DNA from: Bacilli bacterium | GTDB lineage: Bacteria > Bacillota_I > Bacilli_A > RFN20 > CAG-826 | NCBI GenBank assembly: GCA_017447165.1 | Contig: JAFSOD010000003.1 | Span: forward strand, 1 to 64,000 | Reading direction: 5' to 3' | Length of the DNA: 64,000 nucleotides | Notes under the pieces: model-generated | What the model was told of the DNA's origin: nothing | The model's input: only the letters and a program-made list of their open reading frames with translations | The model's database searches: none | Translations under genes and position numbers: made by a program | In this document: one piece after another, positions 27,815-32,118 of the stretch | How positions within the stretch are numbered: the stretch's first letter is position 1 | Layout of the letters: each line of letters begins with the position of its first letter

Positions 27815-28026
27815 TATAATATGTGCGTTCGATGAATTAGAGGAGTAATCAAGTCCTCTTCTTATAGAGAACTAGGGACGGTGGAAGCCTAGTAGAAGAG
27901 CTTGATGAAGGTCGCTAAGGAGAACTGATTCTAATAATTTAGAAAATGAAGTGCCGATAACAAGTTTATCGGAACTAAGGTGGTACCACGTGAAATGCGT
28001 CCTTAGAATAAGGACGTTTTATTTTT
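27815..28026 (+). promoter_or_regulatory. T-box leader controlling valS (Val, GUC specifier)
   Basis: A TATAAT box (27815-27820) starts a leader with a complete T-box. Stem I is closed by GAATTAG / CTGATTC (27834-27840 with 27925-27931), contains the arm CTCTTCT / AGAAGAG and a distal hairpin ACTAGG / CCTAGT with the GGACGGTGGAAG apical loop. The specifier GTC sits at 27911-27913 inside GAAGGTCGC. Stem III is CCGATAA / TTATCGG. The T-box core AAGGTGGTACCACG (27978-27990) gives a TGGT bulge for the tRNA acceptor end. A terminator CGTCCTT / AAGGACG plus T-run follows. Uncharged tRNA-Val should antiterminate. Confidence 0.93.
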
Positions 28027-30623: not shown

Positions 30624-30630
30624 TTGATTA

Positions 30631-30657
30631 GACCTGCTTAGCAGGTCTTTTCTTTTG
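30631..30657 (+). terminator. valS terminator
   Basis: Perfect 8-bp stem AGACCTGC / GCAGGTCT with a TTA loop, followed by TTTCTTTT. Confidence 0.9.
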
Positions 30658-30717
30658 CCTTATTTCTTTTGGAACTTTTTTTCACAAGGTTAGCGATTTT
30701 GGCCGTCTTTATATATA

Positions 30718-30790
30718 TGAGGGGGGCAGAATATGACCTCAATAATTCTTTTACTAAATTTTCCCATATCCAAATGTCTCTCCCCCCTCA
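30718..30790 (+). promoter_or_regulatory. G-tract/C-tract long-range hairpin in the peptide-radC leader
   Basis: TGAGGGGGG (30718-30726) and CCCCCCTCA (30782-30790) are perfectly complementary over 9 bp, very GC-rich for this genome. The 3' arm ends where the Shine-Dalgarno AGGAGG (30790-30795) begins. A possible promoter (TTAGCG, 16 bp, TATATA) ends just before the G-tract, so the transcript may begin in or near the six G. The fold could hide or present the ribosome binding site, or the G-tract could allow slippage at initiation. Both are inference. Confidence 0.6.
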
Positions 30791-30802
30791 GGAGGTTTGC
30801 TT

Positions 30803-30985
30803 ATGAAATATGAATTATTAACCGATTCCGAGATGGAACAACAAATTAGTGGTGAAGCTTTAACTTTAACCACAGTTATGGCAGTACTCGCCACAGCGAT
30901 TATCGCTGTTATTGTTTATAAGATGTTTTTATCTGATAAAGGTAATGCAACTGTTCCTGGCGGATGGAAGTTTAGCTGGAATTAA
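30803..30985 (+). CDS. Small leader-like hydrophobic peptide
   Basis: A 60-residue peptide with an acidic N-terminal part reading LTDSEMEQQISGEA, similar in layout to leaders of exported bacteriocin or signal peptides (hydrophobic-x-x-x-E-M...I-x-G), then a hydrophobic helix (about residues 20-43) and a short polar end, GNATVPGGWKFSWN. It has a strong AGGAGG. Its TAA overlaps the ATG of radC by one base (TAATG), so the two are translationally coupled. No dedicated exporter or immunity gene is in the window. It might be a membrane peptide, an exported peptide or a leader that controls radC; I cannot decide. Confidence 0.65.
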   Translation: MKYELLTDSEMEQQISGEALTLTTVMAVLATAIIAVIVYKMFLSDKGNATVPGGWKFSWN

Positions 30986-31674
30986 TGGCTAATATTAAAG
31001 AACTGCCAGAATATGATCGCCCAAGAGAAAAAGCACTGAGATATGGGGTGAATTCCTTGAGCGATAGTGAGCTATTGTCCCTTTTGTTAAATAAAGGATA
31101 TCGAGGGTCTAATATTTTAGAAATGTCCACAAGTTTGTTATCAAAATATGGAGGGCTAGTAGGCCTTATTAATATCCCAATTTCGGAGTTAAAAAAGAAC
31201 AAAGGAATCAAGGATGTAGGTGCGCTTAAAATCGCAATTATTGGTGAATTTTATAAGCGTGTTTCTGAAAAGAAAAACTATCTTCCAAAAGAAAAAATAG
31301 ATAGTGAATATTTATATAATAAATATAAAGGACAATTTCTTAACTCTGATCAAGAGTATCTGATACTTATAATTTTAAATCGCAATAAGCGTATTATTTA
31401 TGAAACCACTCTATATAAAGGCGGAAGAGATTTTATCAAATATTCCTTTGAAGACATTCATAAAAAAATATCGAAGTTTGATGGTAGGTATTTTTATCTT
31501 ATCCATAACCATCCAAATGGAGACTGTAATCCTAGCGAAGAAGATATCCTTGCCACTTTAGAAATCAAACAAGAAAGTAAAAGAGCACATATTCATCTAA
31601 TTGATCACATAATCATTGGGGAGGACTGTTATTATTCTTTTATCAAAAAAGAAAAAATAACAATTTCTTATTGA
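30985..31674 (+). CDS. radC: RadC-family JAB/MPN domain protein
   Basis: A 229-residue protein with an N-terminal helix-hairpin-helix-like region (DRPREKAL, LSDSELLSLLL) and a C-terminal JAB domain whose metal-binding motif IHNHPNGDCNPSEED is intact (HxHPxGxxxPSxxD). Despite the name, a direct repair role is doubtful in the family; the fold is that of metal-dependent isopeptidases. Translation is coupled to the upstream 60-residue peptide. It ends in TGA. In Bacillus radC precedes mreB; here it precedes rplU. Confidence 0.9.
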   Translation: MANIKELPEYDRPREKALRYGVNSLSDSELLSLLLNKGYRGSNILEMSTSLLSKYGGLVGLINIPISELKKNKGIKDVGALKIAIIGEFYKRVSEKKNYLPKEKIDSEYLYNKYKGQFLNSDQEYLILIILNRNKRIIYETTLYKGGRDFIKYSFEDIHKKISKFDGRYFYLIHNHPNGDCNPSEEDILATLEIKQESKRAHIHLIDHIIIGEDCYYSFIKKEKITISY

Positions 31675-31689
31675 ACTAGACTTATAACT

Positions 31690-31805
31690 TATGTTATATT
31701 TACTAACGTTGTCGCCTCACTAGCTACAACCGCATAGAAAAGGTTTAAAAAACCTTAGGGTTACCTTAATAGCGAGTCCTTAGTGAAATTTAATAAAAGG
31801 AGGGA
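31690..31805 (+). promoter_or_regulatory. Ribosomal protein L21 leader
   Basis: The transcript from a promoter at the radC end (TTGAAC near 31673, then TTATAT) has a structured leader. TCACTA (31717-31722) pairs with TAGTGA (31781-31786) as the outer stem, and AAGGTTT-AAA-AAACCTT (31740-31756) is an inner hairpin. Position, size and layout agree with the L21 leader of Bacillota, by which L21 represses its own operon. The assignment is from context and rough fold, not a covariance search. Confidence 0.6.
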
Positions 31806-31809
31806 CATT

Positions 31810-32118
31810 ATGTACGCAATTATCGAAACTGGTGGAAAACAAGTTCGCGTAGAAGTCGGCGCTAGAATCTTCGTTGAGAAATTAAACGCTGAAGTCGGTT
31901 CAACTGTTACCTTAGACAAAGTTCTCCTCGTTTGTGACAAGAAAGCAAAAGTCGGAACTCCATATGTCGAAGGTGCTAACGTTGTCGCCAAAGTTGAGAA
32001 ACAAGGTAAATCCAAGAAAATCCGTGTTTTCACCTATAAGAATAAGGCTAACGAAAGACGCACATTGGGTCATCGTCAACCTTACACATGCTTAGTCATT
32101 GAATCAATCAATGCTTAA
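31810..32118 (+). CDS. rplU: 50S ribosomal protein L21
   Basis: A 102-residue large-subunit protein that binds 23S rRNA. The [15 protein letters not shown] opening and the C-terminal [25 protein letters not shown] are diagnostic. Start chosen at ATG 31810 because AAAGGAGGG lies just upstream and the family begins exactly here; an in-frame ATG at 31783 would add nine residues from the leader. First gene of rplU-prp-rpmA. Confidence 0.97.

Follow-up and report, generated by a model that had tools for sequence, protein, structure and literature searches.

The analysis covered a 64,000-nucleotide stretch (positions 1 to 64,000, forward strand) of contig JAFSOD010000003.1 from a Bacilli bacterium, assembly GCA_017447165.1, which is referred to as the window. 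A short gene encoding a peptide precursor is located here between valS and radC, followed by rplU. The features of this region are:

30630..30648, plus strand: intrinsic-terminator-like stem of 8 pairs with a T-rich tail, 3' of valS, recognized from the sequence
30710..30717, plus strand: −10-like AT box TATATATA, with a similar box at the same place in most members of the genus
30718..30726, plus strand: 5' arm of a hairpin, TGAGGGGGG, covarying with the 3' arm in the genus
30782..30790, plus strand: 3' arm of the hairpin, CCCCCCTCA, pairing perfectly with the 5' arm
30790..30795, plus strand: Shine-Dalgarno (SD) sequence AGGAGG of the peptide gene, sharing the last base of the 3' arm
30803..30985, plus strand: peptide precursor gene (60 amino acids plus stop), a radC-linked double-glycine-type membrane peptide
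30803..30853, plus strand: leader, residues 1 to 17, MKYELLTDSEMEQQISG
30854..30931, plus strand: hydrophobic helix, residues 18 to 43, hydropathy 2.5 over 19 amino acids
30932..30982, plus strand: C-terminal tail, residues 44 to 60, SDKGNATVPGGWKFSWN, a predicted beta hairpin
30985..31674, plus strand: radC (UPF0758), 229 amino acids, with an intact JAMM motif; a passenger in the model proposed below
31718..31790, plus strand: L21 leader RNA (RF00559, 44.4 bits), start of the unit rplU-ysxB-rpmA-obgE
31810..32118, plus strand: rplU (L21), directly 3' of the peptide gene in radC-less genomes and mollicutes

The stop codon of the peptide gene (TAA, 30983-30985) and the ATG of radC at 30985 overlap by one base in the sequence TAATG. 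With a terminator-like stem closing valS on one side and the L21 leader beginning at 31718 on the other, the peptide gene and radC look like a separate unit, and radC is probably cotranscribed with the peptide gene. A T-box leader (RF00230, 111.6 bits) precedes valS at 27823-28007. The first-pass annotation had described a 60-residue peptide with a leader, a hydrophobic helix and a PGGWKFSW end, its TAATG coupling to an intact RadC, and a perfect 9-bp hairpin touching the SD sequence; all of these were found in place.

The open reading frame starting with ATG at 30803 encodes MKYELLTDSEMEQQISGEALTLTTVMAVLATAIIAVIVYKMFLSDKGNATVPGGWKFSWN. A protein search recovered a single-copy homologue in 54 of 59 relatives from eight families, among them 42 of the 42 good-quality genomes, and profile A1, built from 51 peptide sequences, matched all 55 genomes of the same order in a sample of the class. 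The dN/dS ratio of about 0.03 to 0.14 within the genus of the window indicates strong purifying selection. Judged by this distribution, the peptide gene is a core housekeeping gene that has been kept vertically across the order. The AlphaFold2 model of the peptide (mean pLDDT 80) contained a single long helix of residues 18 to 43 and a hairpin of residues 47-51/55-59 in the tail, the C terminus of which carries the conserved motif PGG(W/F)KFxW. No family was found for the window peptide in Pfam, NCBIfam or the PDB sequences. The close relatives that carry a name are uncultured Bacilli from rumen and gut metagenomes, labeled Erysipelotrichaceae or Bacillales.

Among the 51 homologues, Gly17 at the end of the leader was conserved in 50 and Glu10 in 47, and 25 ended with GG. 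Members of the family matched double-glycine models, TIGR03949 with a best E value of 3e-5 and TIGR01847 with 0.007, and the outer members are textbook double-glycine precursors of the form MRELTIEEMKNLKGG followed by ELTV.... A double-glycine-type leader is thus present across the family, albeit in a weaker form in the window peptide itself, which has SG. The cut-site motif is mostly SG, AG or VG and not GG in the genus of the window, and VG in the sister genera. Known C39 enzymes favor Gly at −2, so that SG or VG instead of GG in this genus counts against cleavage by C39. A prepilin-type signal, judged by eye, is improbable because a Glu at +5 is missing and the leader fits the double-glycine models.

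A C39 (double-glycine) peptidase was present in 54 of the 55 same-order genomes, including all ten that lack radC. In a separate count, Peptidase_C39 matches were obtained in 51 of 54 peptide-positive relatives and in all 36 further genomes of the order, the radC-less ten again included; in G023, G033 and G051, a leadered peptide but no C39 was found. The gene is located directly upstream of ybeY in the neighborhoods read, including those of families f20, f25, f11 and f22. In the genome of the window, the order is dnaJ-C39-ybeY-cdd-era-recO-glyS, and a rearranged genome, G429, carries both loci in one row, valS-peptide-radC-rplU-ysxB-C39-ybeY. Over 28 C39 proteins, C12 and H87 were invariant and Q6 and D103 were conserved in at least 90%, and a C39 with the catalytic Q/C/H/D accompanies the peptide order-wide, with the copy of the window genome being truncated. 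This C39-TMD gene (contig C3, about 83580-85310; locus L128, 5581-7310, outside the window) is without its N-terminal half and the catalytic Cys, and the N-terminal piece of an IS30-like transposase is joined to it, while the peptide gene is intact. The truncation was apparently caused by the IS30-like fragment, with an assembly fault being possible. A single clade for the ybeY-linked C39 copies was not rejected in the C39 tree (p-AU 0.47), which allows one origin for them. The assumption that all PF03412 matches represent the same gene was dropped, because those in f17, f18, f28 and G145 are not near ybeY. Some genomes of the window's genus also carry a separate, ordinary PCAT of 720 to 730 amino acids (L120-L127).

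The chain containing the C39 domain differs between lineages. The complete PCAT architecture C39-TMD-NBD, with an ATP-binding domain in the same chain, occurs in f20 and f22. Most members of the window's order encode C39-TMD, and in f2, f4 and f25 the protein consists of a bare C39 domain of 116 to 170 amino acids. In the f11 protein (612 amino acids), no NBD was recognized. The C39-TMD protein of the window's order gave no ABC_tran match, and its profile match ended at position 447 of the 730 of PCAT1; its predicted fold is that of PCAT1 (6v9z, E value of 3e-13).

Family f25 contains both states of the peptide. In genomes G351, G289 and G423, the peptide carries its leader and ybeY is preceded by a small C39. 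In G412 and in the two congeneric genomes G177 and G251, the peptide consists of the core only; it has about 40 amino acids, starts with the helix and is encoded directly before radC. In G177 and G412, C39 is absent before ybeY, and PF03412 was without a match in either genome. Neither peptide nor C39 was present in seven further f25 genomes for which the two loci were read. The leaderless peptides in genomes without C39 indicate that leader and peptidase are lost together, as judged from two genera.

The RadC protein of the window is an ordinary member of its family, with both domains (PF20582, 2e-20; PF04002, 5e-24) and the motif HxHP...PS..D intact, and its score of 150.7 is below the NCBIfam equivalog cutoff of 180. 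In all 52 loci of the order with both genes on the contig, the peptide gene and radC were on the same strand. In 51 of these loci they overlapped or were separated by no more than 9 bases, and the JAMM motif was intact in 51 of the 52. The pair is kept even where valS or rplU no longer adjoins. Nevertheless, 10 of the 55 same-order genomes, 95 to 100% complete and from the same family (genera g38, g39 and g41), possess the complete peptide gene but gave no RadC match; the order there is valS-peptide-rplU, with radC gone from between. Judged by gene content, RadC is therefore dispensable for retention of the peptide. The first-pass annotation had asked whether homologues of the peptide always precede radC, which does not hold in these ten genomes or in the mollicutes. 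It had also named independent occurrence of peptide and radC together with a nonconserved hairpin as evidence against its proposal, and part of this was observed: the peptide does occur without radC, and the hairpin is kept only within the genus. A gene for a SPOR-like membrane protein of about 120 to 145 amino acids was observed between the peptide gene and radC in f20 and f25 (L100, L102, L110, L113, L114). One genome, G034, gave four RadC matches, with RadC being single copy elsewhere in the order.

The family extends into the mollicutes. Profile A3 matched a peptide before rplU in G218 (6e-8), and reading UGA as Trp revealed double-glycine-type open reading frames upstream of rplU in G061, G074, G123 and others. 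Profile A4, built from five mollicute sequences, gave matches in one family, in 51 of its 60 genomes, mostly directly before rplU. In profile-profile comparisons, the mollicute peptides aligned over their full length with the family of the window (A1, probability 93%, E value of 4e-7; A3, probability 95%, 5e-8). No radC is beside them, and in each of the five mollicute genomes inspected at ybeY, C39 is the gene before it.

When the leader upstream of the peptide gene is folded as a single sequence, its stability is close to that expected from base composition (z = −0.8), which says little about the hairpin. Within the genus, compensatory arm pairs were found (TGAGAGGGGTAA/TTACCCCTCTCA, TGTGGGGGG/CCCCCCACA and TGAGGGGCCC/GGGCCCCTCA), and the arms paired with −17.4 kcal/mol in their own combination versus −11.6 kcal/mol when swapped (permutation P = 5e-5, 20 rows, relatedness partly controlled). 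This covariation indicates that the hairpin is more than chance. A competing local hairpin at 30779-30795 would bury the SD sequence of the peptide gene; with the 5' arm present, the SD sequence was predicted to be freer in at best seven of nine genus members, clearly in about five and often slightly, and its accessibility was lowered in two. Outside the genus the hairpin is mostly absent, and many members have CCTCCTA...TAGGAGGTTTTTT, a terminator-like hairpin with the SD sequence as its 3' arm. In the sister genera (L018, L020, L210, L215-L225), a CCTCC...GGAGG stem with a T run overlaps the SD sequence of the peptide gene, so the valS terminator and the SD sequence may share one hairpin. 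Regulation by the leader RNA is likely on these sequence patterns. Rfam contained no match for the leader hairpin. Since a consensus sigma-70 promoter was not called at 30710..30717, the AT box can be regarded as a putative promoter only. In pyrG-type leaders, a G tract near the transcript start pairs with a downstream C tract. The window resembles these reiterative initiation leaders in that a G tract near the probable start pairs with a downstream C tract, but the 3' arm abuts the SD sequence and is not part of a terminator, several genus members have only GGGG or an interrupted tract (GAGAGGGG), and the start site is putative.

Taken together, the gene and its conservation, the leader, its co-occurrence and joint loss with C39, the independence from radC and the covariation of the hairpin, all read from sequences, point to a leader-guided, C39-matured housekeeping membrane microprotein with a dispensable RadC and hairpin-tuned translation in the genus, with a probability of roughly 0.7. 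The LxxxE...xG leader of the precursor would be read and cut after Gly17 by the dedicated, ybeY-linked C39. The mature product released in this way, about 43 residues long, would comprise a single membrane helix and the short, conserved hairpin at the C terminus (PGG[WF]KFxW). By the positive-inside rule, this terminal hairpin should be in the cytoplasm, and it may bind a partner. By linking the SD region with the probable start of the transcript, the RNA hairpin of the genus would tune translation, perhaps by keeping the C tract off the SD sequence. Export does not seem to be the point, since the PCAT is without ATPase in the window's order, C39 is bare elsewhere and the peptide is leaderless where C39 is absent.

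Alternatively, the product may be a membrane microprotein that is functionally linked to RadC, for instance by tethering, with C39 only adjusting its maturation. That the gene is tightly coupled to radC throughout the order, and directly linked to it in the leaderless f25 forms, would agree with this. It is unlikely, however, because the peptide is kept in radC-less genomes and in mollicutes, the SPOR-like gene often stands between the two genes in f20, and the linkage may simply reflect an old valS-radC-rplU gene order.

Double-glycine/C39 systems are known for bacteriocins and pheromones, and the peptide could be one of these, exported by its PCAT; the first-pass annotation had considered a bacteriocin- or competence-like unit. 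In line with this are the leader with its matches to bacteriocin models, the NBD-containing complete PCAT of f20 and f22, and, in f20, a tandem array of two or three double-glycine peptide genes ahead of radC (L112, 3582-4171; L118, 2-639). Vertical inheritance as an order-wide core gene with purifying selection also on core and tail, the neighbors valS, radC and rplU with no immunity gene seen, the missing exporter ATPase in the window's order, the missing transporter in f4 and f25, and the existence of leaderless forms render it improbable, and this part of the annotation was not supported. Similarity to class IIb bacteriocins (TIGR03949 and kin) is in the leader of the family; unlike them, the window peptide is single, and its core and tail matched no curated class II family above cutoff.

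The first-pass annotation had suggested a pair of peptide and processing protease. In this reading, RadC as a JAMM metallopeptidase would process the peptide, either at the leader or at the PGG near the C terminus, and both would form a dedicated pair. The same-strand adjacency with an intact motif, the persistence of the pair where outer neighbors change, and the lack of radC also in the five peptide-negative relatives are what a dedicated pair would produce. All five double negatives are less than 90% complete, however, and the processor reading is rejected as very improbable because ten near-complete genomes keep a leadered peptide without RadC; the mollicute homologues likewise have no adjoining radC, and the leader is lost together with C39, not with radC. 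Maturation by a protease remains probable from the annotation, with C39 at ybeY and not RadC tracking the leader. The neighbor resembles other RadC/UPF0758 proteins and JAMM isopeptidases in its motif, but is not needed for retention of the peptide. An open reading frame serving solely as leader or attenuator of radC, as its shortness, the stop/start overlap and the upstream hairpin might suggest, is contradicted by selection at the amino acid level and by homologues elsewhere without radC.

The C39-matured microprotein shares with PCAT/C39 systems such as PCAT1-CtA and ComA-ComC an LxxxE..xGG-type leader, a hydrophobic core and the conserved C39 residues Q/C/H/D, and with PCAT1 also the predicted fold of the C39-TMD protein. 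It differs from them by a core housekeeping peptide gene whose locus is fixed and separate from that of the peptidase, by loss of the ATPase in the window's order and of the whole transporter in other lineages, by leaderless variants where C39 is absent, and by a conserved C-terminal tail. A double-glycine/C39 system appears to have been converted to a core, non-export task, the maturation of a very small membrane protein, while its transporter was eroded stepwise.

For the C39 protein 0401 of the minimal cell JCVI-syn3A, no double-glycine peptide was identified (Breuer et al. 2019, PMC6609329), and a literature search by the locus tags 0401 and 0502 of syn3A gave nothing beyond PMC6609329. 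UGA=Trp mollicutes offer a parallel to this orphan, with C39 encoded just ahead of ybeY and a double-glycine-type peptide just ahead of rplU; the parallel is drawn from the mollicute genomes read here (same genomes or family). The peptide family may therefore be a concrete candidate substrate for 0401 and for mycoplasma C39 proteins called substrate-less in the literature. The protein 0500 of syn3A was ruled out as the peptide because it is the L27 protease. The wider claim, that a new, vertically inherited peptide-C39 pair of Bacilli and Mollicutes performs housekeeping maturation of a membrane microprotein and that its mollicute form, encoded directly 5' of rplU, supplies the substrate that the orphan C39 in JCVI-syn3A or its parent has so far lacked, has about an even chance of being correct. 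It turns a question on a gene kept in a minimal cell into a simple cleavage and deletion test. In one mollicute peptide (L353, G191), the motif is KEVAASG versus KGGAASG in its sisters, which may mean that the cleavage site has been lost there.
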